Assembly (NCBI RefSeq): GCF_014195445.1
Contig: NZ_JACIBT010000003.1
Span: forward strand, 62,001-126,000
Reading direction: 5' to 3'
DNA length: 64,000 nt
Origin: Garicola koreensis
GTDB taxonomy: Bacteria; Actinomycetota; Actinomycetes; Actinomycetales; Micrococcaceae
Part shown: positions 16,564 to 21,271 of the stretch, piece after piece
How positions within the stretch are numbered: position 1 is the first letter of the stretch
Layout: each line of letters starts with the position of its first letter
Notes under the pieces: generated by a model
What the model was told of the DNA's origin: nothing
Seen by the model: only the letters and a program-made list of their open reading frames with translations
The model's database searches: none
Made by a program: the position numbers and the translations under genes

Positions 16564-17037
16564 ATGGCTCTTCCGCTGCGTGTGCTCCTTGATCAGCCCG
16601 AGATCCCCGGCAACACCGGCAACCTGATCCGGCTGGCCGCCGTGGTCGGCTTCGAGCTGCACATCGCTGGGCCCACGCTCTTCGACTTCTCCGACGCCCG
16701 GCTCAAGCGCGCCGGTCTGGACTACCACGACCTGGCGGTGATGACCGAGCACGCCGATTTGGAGGCGGCCTACGCACACTTGGCGCCGCAGCGGATCTTC
16801 GCGTTCACCGGCGGCGGCGACACCGCCCACACCGACATTGCCTACCGCGACTCCGACGTGCTGCTCTTCGGCCGCGAATCCACCGGCCTGGACCACCATG
16901 TCGCCCATGACCAGCGCGTCTCCGCCCGCGTCCGGATCCCGATGCTGCCGGGGCTGCGCAGCCTCAACCTGGCCAATTCGGTCACTGTGGCCGTCTATGA
17001 GGCGTGGCGGCAGCGCGGGTTCGCCGGCGCCGACTGA
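16564..17037 (+). CDS. trmL: tRNA (cytidine(34)-2'-O)-methyltransferase TrmL
   Basis: A 157-aa SPOUT methyltransferase that modifies the wobble base of tRNA-Leu species. The trefoil-knot motifs are visible: DQPEIPGNTGNLIRLAAVVG, LLFGRESTGL and IPMLPGLRSLNLANSVTVA. The ATG at 16564 gives a product of the usual length. It lies 47 bases after the J-domain gene on the same strand. Confidence 0.95.
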   Translation: MALPLRVLLDQPEIPGNTGNLIRLAAVVGFELHIAGPTLFDFSDARLKRAGLDYHDLAVMTEHADLEAAYAHLAPQRIFAFTGGGDTAHTDIAYRDSDVLLFGRESTGLDHHVAHDQRVSARVRIPMLPGLRSLNLANSVTVAVYEAWRQRGFAGAD

Positions 17038-17151
17038 TCCCGGGTTCGGGTGTTGGTCACCGCAGTGCTCAGCGGAGCTGACTAGAATCACCCACAGAGT
17101 GAGCCGGGGACCCGACGCAGCCCGATGCATGGGGCGGGAAGCGAGAGCACA

Positions 17152-18741
17152 ATGAGCCAGACGCCAGGGGACGACCCCCGCTGGGCGAGTTCCCCTGCCG
17201 ACCCGCAGCAGGATCCGGCCGGGCACGACGACGCCGGGCACCGTGACACTGGGCCCGACGGCGAGACAGTTGAGCAGGACTTTGCCCAGGAGGAGCCGAG
17301 TCTGGCGGACCTGCTGGCCGGCACCGCACGCGGGGAAACGGCGTCGTTCTCTGCGTTCTTCGAGTCCACGGCCGACGTCGTCTACGGCCTGGCCCTGCTG
17401 GTCCACGCCGATGCTGACGGAGCCCGCACCGCCACGGTGGCTGTCTACCAGCATCTGTGGGATCAGGCCGACGCCCGAGCCCGCGACCTGCGGCTGCAGA
17501 GCCAGACCTCGGTCACTCTGACCCATGAGTATGCCGGATTCAACGACGCCGAATCTGCCGCGGAGACTGACACCTACCGGCCCAATGAGTATGAGCTGGT
17601 TCTGGAGTGGCTGGTCCCGCTGACTCACCGGATCTTCGTGGAGCGCTTCCGTGAGGGCATTGCCACACCGATCCCGCTGGACCCGGTGCCCCAGGACCAG
17701 GGCGGGGTCGCCGGCCTGCCCGAGGAGGTCCTGGAGGATCTGCTGGCGCTGTCGGACTCGCAGGCGCAGTCGGTGGCGCTGACCTATTTGGCCGGCCTGA
17801 CCCACCAGCAGGTGGCTGAGCGGGTCGGGGCCGCCGTGCCCAGCGTCAAGTCCCGGCTGCGGGATGCGATGACCCGGATGCATGCACAGCGCAGCGAGCG
17901 CCGGGCCGACTCCGACCCGATTCTGCGTGCGGCGGTGACCCGTGAGGATGTGGCGCGCTCCGGTGCGGTCAACCGCAACTTCACCAATGCGATCGCCGCC
18001 GATCTGGACAAGGGCCTGCTGGTGGAGCTGGCCGAGCTCTATGCCCTGGACGGACTCGATGACCGGGAGCGCGCCCTGCTGGATGAGCGGGCGCTGACCG
18101 CCGAGCCCGGCGAGGCCCAGCAGTGGGAGACCCGCGTGCTGGCCGCCCGGCGCACCCTCTCCGAGATCTTCGCCGCCGATCCGGTGCCGCCGCCCAGTCA
18201 CCTGCTCGACGAGGTGCTGCACAGCGTCGGCGACCAGGAGGTCGGCGTCGGGCTGGTGGAGGAGTTCTCCAACCACACCGGCGAGGAGCCCCGCCGCAGA
18301 CCGGTGCTCAAGCGCTGGATGTTCATCGCCGGGTTCCTGCTGGTGCTGCTGGTGGGCGGACTGGTCATCTGGCAGGTCTCCGTTCCGCGCGACATTGAGG
18401 CGGTCGCAGAAGCTGACCCGCAGGCGCACCTGGTCCAGGGGTACGAGATGGCCGACGGCGGCCAGGTCGATGCAGTGTTCTCCCAGGAGGAGGACCTCGG
18501 CTATGTGGAGTTCAACGATGTGCCCGAACTGGACGAGGGCGCCACCTACCAGGTCTGGCTGCTGCCCACGGGCACCGGCTCCCCCTCATCGGTGGGCAAC
18601 TTCACCGCCGAGGAGCTGCAGAGCGAGAACCTGCAGGTCCAGCGGCTGGCGCAGTACCGCACGCTGATGATCACAGTGGAGTCGATCCGCGGCCTGGAGC
18701 GGCCCCAGGGGGACACGGTCGCCGAGTTCCAGCTGCGCTAG
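17152..18741 (+). CDS. Sigma factor-like / RskA-like anti-sigma fusion protein
   Basis: One 529-aa polypeptide that reads as SigK joined to its anti-sigma factor RskA. Residues about 50-104 (LADLLAGTARGETASFSAFFESTADVVYGLALL) resemble sigma region 2, but the following promoter-melting part is replaced by an acidic segment. Residues about 199-238 (LSDSQAQSVALTYLAGLTHQQVAERVG...VKSRLRDAMTRM) form a good region 4 helix-turn-helix. A linker similar to an anti-sigma ZAS domain follows (about 275-340). Then come one membrane helix (about 389-409) and an RskA C-terminal domain (YEMADGGQVDAVF ... YQVWLLPTG). There is no cysteine, so no zinc site. The chosen ATG lies after GGGAAGCGAG; an ATG nine codons upstream is possible. 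sigK and rskA are normally separate neighbours. Confidence 0.8.
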   Translation: MSQTPGDDPRWASSPADPQQDPAGHDDAGHRDTGPDGETVEQDFAQEEPSLADLLAGTARGETASFSAFFESTADVVYGLALLVHADADGARTATVAVYQHLWDQADARARDLRLQSQTSVTLTHEYAGFNDAESAAETDTYRPNEYELVLEWLVPLTHRIFVERFREGIATPIPLDPVPQDQGGVAGLPEEVLEDLLALSDSQAQSVALTYLAGLTHQQVAERVGAAVPSVKSRLRDAMTRMHAQRSERRADSDPILRAAVTREDVARSGAVNRNFTNAIAADLDKGLLVELAELYALDGLDDRERALLDERALTAEPGEAQQWETRVLAARRTLSEIFAADPVPPPSHLLDEVLHSVGDQEVGVGLVEEFSNHTGEEPRRRPVLKRWMFIAGFLLVLLVGGLVIWQVSVPRDIEAVAEADPQAHLVQGYEMADGGQVDAVFSQEEDLGYVEFNDVPELDEGATYQVWLLPTGTGSPSSVGNFTAEELQSENLQVQRLAQYRTLMITVESIRGLERPQGDTVAEFQLR

Positions 18742-18819: not shown

Positions 18820-19599
18820 TCAGAAGCCGGAGATCGTCGCTTCGCTGTTGACCACCACGTGGTGGAACTCTTCGGCGCTGCCGCCGGCACCGTGCGCCTG
18901 GGCCAAACCGTCGGTGACGAACTTCACCATGGCCTCGGCGTCGCGGTGTTGGCTGAAGTGCCGGTTCAGCGCGGCGATCTTGCGGTCCTGGTACCCGGCG
19001 ACGTCGACTTTGGTCTGCGCCAAGTGCCGGGGTGCACCCATCATCAGCAGGTGGCGGATCTTGAAGGCCTCAAGCCCAGCCGCCGCCAGCTCCGGATAGG
19101 CGAAGGGGTTCTCCACCGCCGGGTAGCAGGCGCGCACCACGGCCTCGCCGCAGGCCAGATGGTCCGGATGGGACTTCTGCAGCCGGTCCCAGGACCGTTC
19201 GGGGTGCATGCTGAACACCGCATCGGGGCGCTGGGCGCGCATCACCTCCACAATTTTTCCGATCAGCTCGTCAGTGGGCCGTAGGAACCCGTCAGGCTCG
19301 TTGAGCTGGATGACCCGCTGAAACCCGACGACGGCGGCGGCCTCCTGCTGCTCCTTCTCTCGCAGCCGGGCAGTCTCCTGCGGGGAGCGTTCGGCGTCGA
19401 ACCCTCCGGCGTCACCGGCGGTGAGCAGGCAGAGGGTCGCTTCAACCCCGCGGTCGGTCAGCGCAGCCAGCGTGGCTGAGGCGCCGAAGTCGACGTCGTC
19501 GGGGTGGGCGGCGAAGGCCACCACCCGCCGCAGCCCCAGGCGCCGCACCAGCTCATCCGGGTCGATGAGGCCCTGCACCCCAGCATCAGCGGCAGTCAT
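18820..19599 (-). CDS. PIG-L family deacetylase
   Basis: A 259-aa zinc-dependent N-deacetylase of the LmbE/MshB type. The zinc motif AFAAHPDDVDFG is near residue 34, and the second ligand is in QKSHPDHLACGEAV. Family members deacetylate GlcNAc-linked small molecules, including mycothiol precursors. The exact substrate is not clear and MshB itself is usually longer. ATG at 19599 follows AGGAGGG. It lies 13 bases after the HtrA-type gene and probably shares its transcript. Confidence 0.9.
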   Translation of the reverse strand: MTAADAGVQGLIDPDELVRRLGLRRVVAFAAHPDDVDFGASATLAALTDRGVEATLCLLTAGDAGGFDAERSPQETARLREKEQQEAAAVVGFQRVIQLNEPDGFLRPTDELIGKIVEVMRAQRPDAVFSMHPERSWDRLQKSHPDHLACGEAVVRACYPAVENPFAYPELAAAGLEAFKIRHLLMMGAPRHLAQTKVDVAGYQDRKIAALNRHFSQHRDAEAMVKFVTDGLAQAHGAGGSAEEFHHVVVNSEATISGF

Positions 19600-19612
19600 C
19601 AGCGGATCCCTC

Positions 19613-21271
19613 CTACAGCGATGCGAGGGTGACGTCGATGTCCTGGCGCTCCCCGTCACGCAGCACGGTCAGGGTGATGGTCTCCCCATCGGCGTACTCA
19701 CGCACTGTGGCGGTCAGCGAGGTGCCGTCCTGGATCTGGCGGCCCTCGACTGCCTCGATGACATCGCCCTCCTGGATGCCTGCCTCGGAGGCAGGAGACT
19801 GCTCAGAGACTGCGGTGACCAGCCCGCCGGCGGGAAAGCCCATCGGCGGCAGCTGGTCGCCCTCTGCGGCGTCGAGCATCTGCTGGTTCACCTCCGCATC
19901 GGGGTGTGCTGGCAGCACTTGGACGCCCAGCAGCCCGTGTGAGGTCTCGCCGTTCTCAATCAGGTCGTTGGCAATGCGCTCGGCATAGTCGATGGGGATG
20001 GAGAAGCCCACCCCGATGCTGCCGGCGCCGCCTCCGCCCTGCATGCCTCCGCCTCCGGTGGAGGCAATGGCGACGTTGACTCCGATGACCCGGCCCTCAG
20101 CGTCCACCAGGGCACCGCCGGAGTTGCCCTGGTTGATGGCCGCGTCCGTCTGGATGACGTTGAGATAGATGCTGCCCTGGCTGGGCGACTGCTCCTGGTC
20201 GGGGAAGAAGAACTCGAAGCCTCCCTCGCCGTCGGGGCTCTGCTCCTGATCCTGCGACTCCAGGTCCTCGAACAGCTCGGGGGTCGGTTCAGTTTCGTCG
20301 GGCTCCACCGCGGCCGAGGCCACTTGGATGGTGCGGTCCAGGGTGGAGACGATTCCCGTGGTGACCGTTCCGGCCAGGCTCAGCGGGGCGCCGATGGCGA
20401 TGGTCTGATCCCCCACGTTGAGGTCGCCGGAGGAGCCGAGTTCGGCGGGGGTGAGATTCTCCGTGTCCTCCAGCTGGATGACGGCGAGATCGCTGAGCGG
20501 GTCGGTGCCGACGATCTCGGCAGTGGTGACCCGGCCGTCGTTGAGCTGGACCTGGATCTCGGGGTCGGCCGCGGAGCCGCCCAGGGTCACCACATGAGTG
20601 TTGGTGAGCACGTGTCCCTCGTTGTCCAGAATGATGCCGGATCCGGAGCCGGAGCCGCCCTGGCCGCCGACTGCGAGGGTGACCACCGAGGAAGAGGCCT
20701 GGTCGGCCGCCGCAGTGATCTGGGAGGCATCCTCCGGGTCGTTGATCTCGATGCCGGGTCCGGACTCGCCGACCTGAGGGGCCGGGTCGTCCAGGAGCGC
20801 CTGGCCGCCCAGCACCGCGACGCCGCCGCCGAGCAGCGCGGCCAAAAATATGCCCAGCGCGAACGCTCCGACACCGATGCCGCGACGCTTCTTCTTCGGC
20901 GCCGGTGCCGCCGCTGCCGACTGGTCCCAGGACCCGGGCTGCTGAGCGCCCCAGCCGGGAGTCTGCCCTGCCGCATTAGCATTAGCCGGTGCCTGCTGCT
21001 CCGGGTGCGCGGGTCGTTCCGCATAGACCCCCTGGCCGAAGTGCGGGGCAGGATCGGACTGCGCAGCAGAATCGGAGTGCGGCGCAGGAGGCGGCGTCGA
21101 ACCCTGGTCAGCGGCCGAGGACGGGTCCGGACGGGGGCCCTGCTGGCCTGATTCTTCGGGGTTCTCAGGCAGCCGCTGGGTCGGTTCGTCACCGCCGTTG
21201 GGGCTGGGCCGGTTCGCCCCGTCGTCGTGACCGTCCGGCGACTGGGAGGGGTCTTTCGGATCCTGTGACAT
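19613..21271 (-). CDS. HtrA/DegP-type membrane serine protease with PDZ domain
   Basis: A 552-aa protein with a long Pro/Gln/Ala-rich cytoplasmic N-terminus and one membrane anchor (about residues 130-155, after KKKRR). The trypsin-like domain has the triad His in LTNTHVV, Asp in PLSDLAVIQL and Ser in NQGNSGGALVD. A C-terminal PDZ domain follows (AGIQEGDVIEAVEGRQI). The protease acts outside the membrane in envelope protein quality control, as PepD/HtrA do in other actinobacteria. It is transcribed before the PIG-L gene. Confidence 0.93.
   Translation of the reverse strand: MSQDPKDPSQSPDGHDDGANRPSPNGGDEPTQRLPENPEESGQQGPRPDPSSAADQGSTPPPAPHSDSAAQSDPAPHFGQGVYAERPAHPEQQAPANANAAGQTPGWGAQQPGSWDQSAAAAPAPKKKRRGIGVGAFALGIFLAALLGGGVAVLGGQALLDDPAPQVGESGPGIEINDPEDASQITAAADQASSSVVTLAVGGQGGSGSGSGIILDNEGHVLTNTHVVTLGGSAADPEIQVQLNDGRVTTAEIVGTDPLSDLAVIQLEDTENLTPAELGSSGDLNVGDQTIAIGAPLSLAGTVTTGIVSTLDRTIQVASAAVEPDETEPTPELFEDLESQDQEQSPDGEGGFEFFFPDQEQSPSQGSIYLNVIQTDAAINQGNSGGALVDAEGRVIGVNVAIASTGGGGMQGGGGAGSIGVGFSIPIDYAERIANDLIENGETSHGLLGVQVLPAHPDAEVNQQMLDAAEGDQLPPMGFPAGGLVTAVSEQSPASEAGIQEGDVIEAVEGRQIQDGTSLTATVREYADGETITLTVLRDGERQDIDVTLASL

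Follow-up and report, generated by a model that had tools for sequence, protein, structure and literature searches.

The window, a stretch of 64,000 nucleotides, contains one open frame in which a sigma-like half is joined to an RskA-type anti-sigma half (Table 1). As far as comparison of related genes can tell, the fusion, the orthology of the gene at this locus, the loss of the core-binding triad and the promoter-melting loop, and selective constraint on the protein are all well established. Since the switch half lacks the parts that drive RNA polymerase and is nevertheless conserved, it probably now serves another job. It is called here a pseudo-sigma because the core RNA polymerase-binding residues and the melting loop are lost. 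The reading favoured, tentatively, is that of a pseudo-sigma that is anchored in the membrane and clamped by the anti-sigma domain of the same chain, a one-component receptor with DNA as its likeliest target and without formation of a holoenzyme.

Table 1. Features of the fused gene and its neighbours, in window coordinates
Feature	Position	Strand	Remarks
TrmL-type tRNA methyltransferase	16564..17037	+	syntenic neighbour
-10-like TAGAAT	17083..17088	+	upstream of the frame; resemblance only
Fused pseudo-sigma/RskA protein	17152..18741	+	529 aa, open frame, no cysteine
Sigma2-like domain	17299..17655	+	residues 50-168; T93/V96/A97 at the D/Q/E positions of SigK region 2.2
Variable acidic segment	17536..17586	+	residues 129-145; replaces the promoter-melting loop before the 2.4 helix
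Region 2.4-like helix	17587..17655	+	residues 146-168; minimum nonsynonymous difference among 11 regions compared (genus)
Sigma4 domain	17722..17895	+	residues 191-248; recognition helix K233 S234 R235 L236 R237 D238, invariant (26 genus proteins)
Linker DPILRAAVT...RNF	17896..18003	+	residues 249-284; at the junction; position of the SigK C-terminus (CLGV) and of the sigma stop/rskA start in split pairs
Anti-sigma domain RskA_N	18004..18177	+	residues 285-342
Juxtamembrane motif EVGVGLVE	18238..18261	+	residues 363-370; common to most truncated sister genes, absent from split RskAs
Membrane helix, single	18307..18381	+	residues 386-410 (about)
Extracytoplasmic RskA_C beta domain	18409..18738	+	residues 420-529
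PIG-L-type deacetylase	18820..19659	-	syntenic neighbour

Both partners of a SigK-RskA pair in one frame

The first-pass annotation of this DNA had described a single open frame with a sigma-like half, a region-4 helix-turn-helix, one membrane helix, an RskA C-terminal domain and no cysteine, all of which is confirmed. An in-frame ATG at 17125 is a possible earlier start that would add 9 residues; by eye, TANNNT hexamers lie near the start whether the locus is fused or split. Pfam places Sigma70_r4 at residues 199-243 (9e-8), RskA_N at 290-336 (2.4e-9) and RskA_C at 395-519 (1.5e-14), each above its curated cut-off, and Sigma70_r4_2 matches as well (7.2e-7). The NCBIfam anti-sigma model covers residues 293-519 with 94 bits, under its cut-off of 100. 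The protein had been portrayed as a sigma factor with an RskA-like anchor, and both are there, but the anti-sigma domain RskA_N had been overlooked; its presence means that sigma-like parts are combined with complete anti-sigma parts, rather than with an anchor only.

The region-2-like segment is less easily recognised. Pfam Sigma70_r2, the profile proposed earlier as a check on an N-terminal sigma region, has no match in the window protein up to E 10; elsewhere it gave 61.3 bits in one split SigK and no more than 20.2 in any of seven fused proteins. Alignment and fold do find sigma2: residues 51-107 align with SigK of Mycobacterium tuberculosis, a match that is weak taken alone (13.7 bits), two NCBIfam sigma models match, starting at residue 52 and far under their cut-offs (the best, SigK, with 82 bits against 226), and the structure model superposes. 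The top two sequence matches among solved structures are both chains of the SigK-RskA complex 4nqw.

In the AlphaFold model, sigma2 and sigma4 are placed as in RskA-bound SigK (4nqw; 144/148 residues, 2.7 A), and the other sigma/anti-sigma complexes compared do not fit both domains at once (9.7-12.8 A). When Foldseek aligns the model to 4nqw_A, the fit is less close (8.7 A; TM 0.76, normalised by target; E 7.8e-4), and 4nqw_B has an E-value of 0.26. AlphaFold may itself have reproduced the arrangement from 4nqw. The anti-sigma domain is predicted by the model to inhibit the sigma half, intramolecularly only. The protein thus has the sigma2 and sigma4 fold of an ECF sigma factor and the RskA_N, membrane helix and RskA_C of an RskA-type class I anti-sigma factor; the cognate sigma of such an anti-sigma factor is a separate adjacent gene, but here the neighbours are genes of the TrmL, PIG-L, DnaJ and HtrA types and the sigma half lies in the same frame. 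Sigma-like, anti-sigma and membrane parts share one chain, as in proteins of the IutY/ECF52 type.

The locus across the Micrococcaceae

Within the window's genus, Nesterenkonia (g1, Micrococcaceae), all 30 genomes searched, its own included, carry a near full-length match in a single frame with no internal stop, and the stop or frameshift between the halves that had been named as a check is found in none of them. The fused frame is not an assembly artefact, because besides these 30 genomes, in five further genera of the family the orthologue in this position is fused too.

A profile of the fused proteins (E<=1e-20) matched 90 of 395 genomes and 13 of 32 genera of the family, fused in some and split in others. 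Twenty loci were read around these matches and 19 more, mostly one per further genus, around PIG-L, which was found in 24 of the 35 genomes searched for it. In the first 20 loci, a DnaJ-type gene and the gene which we take to be TrmL-type precede the locus gene in every case, and the gene presumed to be PIG-L-type follows it, with an HtrA-type gene beyond, in 19. The HtrA protease had been offered as the releasing enzyme, but the link is not specific, since its gene adjoins fused and split loci alike.

The state of the locus was resolved in 25 of the 32 genera, mostly from one genome each, with g3, g5, g6, g15, g24, g28 and g29 outside this count. It is fused in six genera (g1, g2, g4, g14, g16, g21), a canonical adjacent sigma/anti-sigma pair in five (g10, g18, g25, g26, g31) and truncated in nine (g8, g11, g12, g17, g20, g22, g23, g27, g30); in the remaining five (g7, g9, g13, g19, g32) the gene is missing or replaced. 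Truncated genes, with stop-to-stop frames of 186-266 aa, retain the membrane helix and RskA_C and have neither a sigma nor an anti-sigma domain. Nine short RskA_C membrane proteins read between TrmL and PIG-L (L118, L119, L122, L124, L130, L131, L132, L134 and L135) have no sigma or anti-sigma domain, and eight of them carry a GLDLVDEV-like juxtamembrane motif. The TrmL-PIG-L gap of g32 and g13 (L133, L129) holds an unrelated frame, SAM methyltransferase-like by eye. One g14 genome (listed contamination 6%) has a short frame of 380 aa (L176).

In six split loci the sigma stop adjoins the rskA frame or lies within it, and three of the six have both genes in the same frame, so that few changes would suffice to fuse such pairs. 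A neighbour tree of the DnaJ, TrmL and PIG-L proteins (684 columns, 44 taxa, midpoint root) sets the six fused genera apart from the others with support 88, deep nodes among the others having 63-69. In the tree of the membrane helix and RskA_C, fused genes (96) and truncated genes of eight genera (98) group together (100), with the split genes and the truncated gene of g8 as their sister group (78), and the locus genes stand apart from second RskA copies of the genus and RskAs of other loci (node 99). The locus gene is therefore one orthologous line in which the truncated genes are the nearest kin of the fused. As far as seen in these trees, the fusion appears to have happened once; the g8 gene looks as if it had been truncated independently, from a gene of the split type, and the truncated RskA_C genes that are sister to the fused ones are probably a family of their own.

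What the sigma half has lost and kept

Sigma residues were compared between 51 fused proteins, nine split SigKs and 37 control ORFs, among which five loci are included twice, leaving 32 distinct ones, and L144 duplicates the gene of split row L117. Four of the 30 genus proteins (L014, L019, L020, L025) were left out of two alignments as close relatives of others; the second alignment is also without L175, whose start and E-value equal those of L116, and without the short L176.

The D/Q/E triad of region 2.2, which we take to correspond to D403, Q406 and E407 of sigma70, binding the beta' clamp, is complete in 9/9 split SigKs and in 0/51 fused proteins, the window protein included; singly, D occurs in 6/51, Q in 2/51 and E in 1/51, and in the controls [DE], Q and [ED] are each present in 37/37. 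Ahead of the 2.4 helix, the G of GSP is present in 9/9 split SigKs and in 0/51 fused proteins, all 51 having E or R. An acidic replacement of the melting part, claimed earlier, is borne out: the net charge of 2.3-2.4 is -8 to -1 in 26 genus proteins and -8 to +1 over the fused set, against +1 to +4 in the nine split SigKs. Both conserved SigK cysteines (9/9 split) are replaced in 51/51 fused proteins. A redox role of these cysteines is described in the available parts of PMC8103513 and PMC7509140; the latter also reports natural SigKs without them, so that their replacement alone does not prove lost function.

These losses bear on the idea that the frame encodes a working, self-inhibited ECF sigma which, as with IutY, would be freed in active form by regulated intramembrane proteolysis upon a signal, a reading we consider improbable. 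The domain order is that of proteolysis-regulated fusions as summarised in part of PMC8999054, the helix-turn-helix is kept, and one M50 protease gene was found in the window's genome, which is about 80% complete; moreover, a protein called RskA in Nesterenkonia sp. Act20 falls under UV and recovers, according to an excerpt of PMC8965627, which does not state which RskA is meant. Yet the core-binding triad and the G of GSP are gone from the fused proteins of all six genera, which is why the self-tethered transcription factor freed by proteolysis suggested earlier, if taken as a working sigma, is disfavoured. The shifted 2.3-2.4 charge also speaks against it, as does the silence of Sigma70_r2 in the window protein, though three other places in the genome match that profile. 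The M50 gene lies about 2.7 kb from one of these three matches (G000:C2:43382-47601; L192, L195). The sigma2 W is retained in 51/51 fused proteins along with other core residues, so altered core contacts are possible as far as sequence tells.

The -35 recognition helix has fared differently. Its [KR]xR motif is kept in 44/51 fused proteins, the window protein included, and in 34/37 controls. The misses are all seven g14 proteins, which still keep the fusion; basic charge in this helix is kept in g1, g2, g4 and g16, and g21 has little net charge. DNA binding is therefore not general among the fused proteins, and what preserves the helix may be its contact with the anti-sigma domain, not with DNA. 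That sigma4 is kept without sigma2 function would suit an antagonist that sits on -35 elements or on the beta flap, thereby repressing genes that depend on other ECF sigmas; such rivalry gains some interest from a second, canonical SigK-RskA pair encoded by separate genes elsewhere in the six genus genomes read (L178-L183). The membrane tether argues against it, and we rate it very improbable. Nor is such a partner seen in the window's genome (about 80% complete), since only one RskA_C gene was found there. In another genome (G052) a SigK-like match runs across two frames, as if frameshifted (L190).

Selective constraint was assessed in the genus over 284 of 325 pairs (dS under 1). dN/dS is 0.06-0.22 in the 20 closest pairs (dN up to 0.11) and reaches 0.64 over all 284. 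Pooled nonsynonymous difference per site, which can be read as relative only because dS is near saturation, is lowest in the 2.4-like helix (0.061). The recognition helix (0.115) comes next, then the anti-sigma domain (0.159), whereas the maximum is in RskA_C (0.304), and the membrane helix (0.294) and the loop preceding the 2.4-like helix (0.272) likewise vary freely. The cytosolic domains are under stronger constraint than the outer domain; the sigma-like and anti-sigma domains are therefore the most conserved parts, not decayed ones. The first-pass annotation had also considered a decayed pair turned into a membrane-bound regulator: conversion fits, but "decayed" does not, given purifying selection on the cytosolic domains. 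A decaying pseudogene or an assembly error, to which the loss of canonical motifs and the truncation in sister genera might point, is hardly credible in view of these dN/dS values and of the fused state in six genera, and for the genus it is refuted by open frames in 30/30 genomes.

Possible roles and known relatives

Ahead of the membrane, a motif G[VMLI]x[LMF][VILM][EDG] occurs in 48/51 fused and 8/10 truncated proteins and in 0/9 split and 0/14 other RskAs, counts that describe rather than blindly test it because the pattern was written after inspection of the sequences. The segment has low confidence in both structure models, as disorder would give. The motif lends some weight to a reading of the cytosolic half as a protein-binding scaffold that does not bind DNA, the conserved output being the juxtamembrane motif and RskA_C. 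Sister genes retain just the membrane helix, RskA_C and usually the motif, the recognition-helix motif is lost in g14, and the 2.4-like helix is under tighter constraint than the helix-turn-helix. We nevertheless regard a scaffold as unlikely, as K-S-R-L-R-D is invariant in 26 genus proteins and basic charge is kept in four of the fused genera.

The membrane-anchored pseudo-sigma remains the preferred reading, although a sister lineage without the entire cytosolic module weighs against it. Under this scheme, an ancestral sigK-rskA pair at the locus would have lost its boundary and become a single protein, whose sigma half would have retained its fold, the helix-turn-helix for -35 elements and its hold over the anti-sigma domain while losing the core RNA polymerase-binding residues and the melting loop. 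Anchored in the membrane by RskA, the pseudo-sigma would be held closed by its own anti-sigma domain, as the predicted fold suggests. The clamp would be opened by a change that RskA_C senses or by intramembrane cutting, perhaps involving the M50 protease of the genome. This would alter the binding of the sigma4 helix-turn-helix and of the juxtamembrane motif, most likely to DNA through sigma4 or else to a partner through the motif, with no holoenzyme formed.

SigK-RskA of M. tuberculosis (4nqw) resembles the fused protein in sequence, fold and domain order of the partners, and split pairs of this type occupy the same locus in related genera. Unlike them, the fused protein is one polypeptide, with both SigK cysteines replaced, the region 2.2 triad and GSP loop lost, and the linker and juxtamembrane motif new. 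Sigma/anti-sigma fusion as such is already known, and the earlier statement that no example had been described was too strong: fusions that have been reported or predicted comprise IutY (ECF243), SCO4117 (ECF52), ECF48, ECF53 and part of ECF36 (PMC8999054, PMC5411451). IutY of Pseudomonas putida likewise unites sigma and anti-sigma in one membrane protein; there, as an excerpt of PMC5411451 describes, cutting by Prc and RseP frees an active sigma, and the periplasmic anti-sigma domain is of the cell-surface-signalling type. The fused protein differs in its RskA-type anti-sigma part and in a sigma half that lacks the residues for core binding. SCO4117 and other ECF52, ECF48 and ECF53 proteins of Actinobacteria share a C-terminal anti-sigma-like domain and membrane helices, but in the account given by part of PMC8999054 their anti-sigma part is a zinc finger (ZAS-type), their outer domains are others, and the sigma is expected to be active after processing. 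Neither an RskA-type fusion nor an RNAP-blind sigma fused to an anti-sigma was found among the literature matches listed, which comprise titles and abstract openings, mostly of literature open without subscription. Set beside the known fusions, three features look unusual at the level of sequence: a sigma half that looks RNAP-blind, the new motif next to the membrane, and a sister lineage left with a remnant only.

A wider claim, possible but doubtful, is that these proteins form a family of membrane pseudo-sigma receptors, in which the sigma would have given up RNA polymerase after the fusion, sigma4 would bind -35-like DNA alone, and the juxtamembrane motif would be a new docking site; in the headless sister lineage, motif, membrane helix and RskA_C would persist. 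The synteny-anchored series of separate pair, fused pseudo-sigma and membrane remnant offers a route by which a sigma/anti-sigma pair may be repurposed, and would test whether regulation by a sigma fold can do without RNA polymerase. In these genera, proteins encoded at the locus and labelled sigma factor or anti-sigma factor may not be either one as the terms are normally understood.
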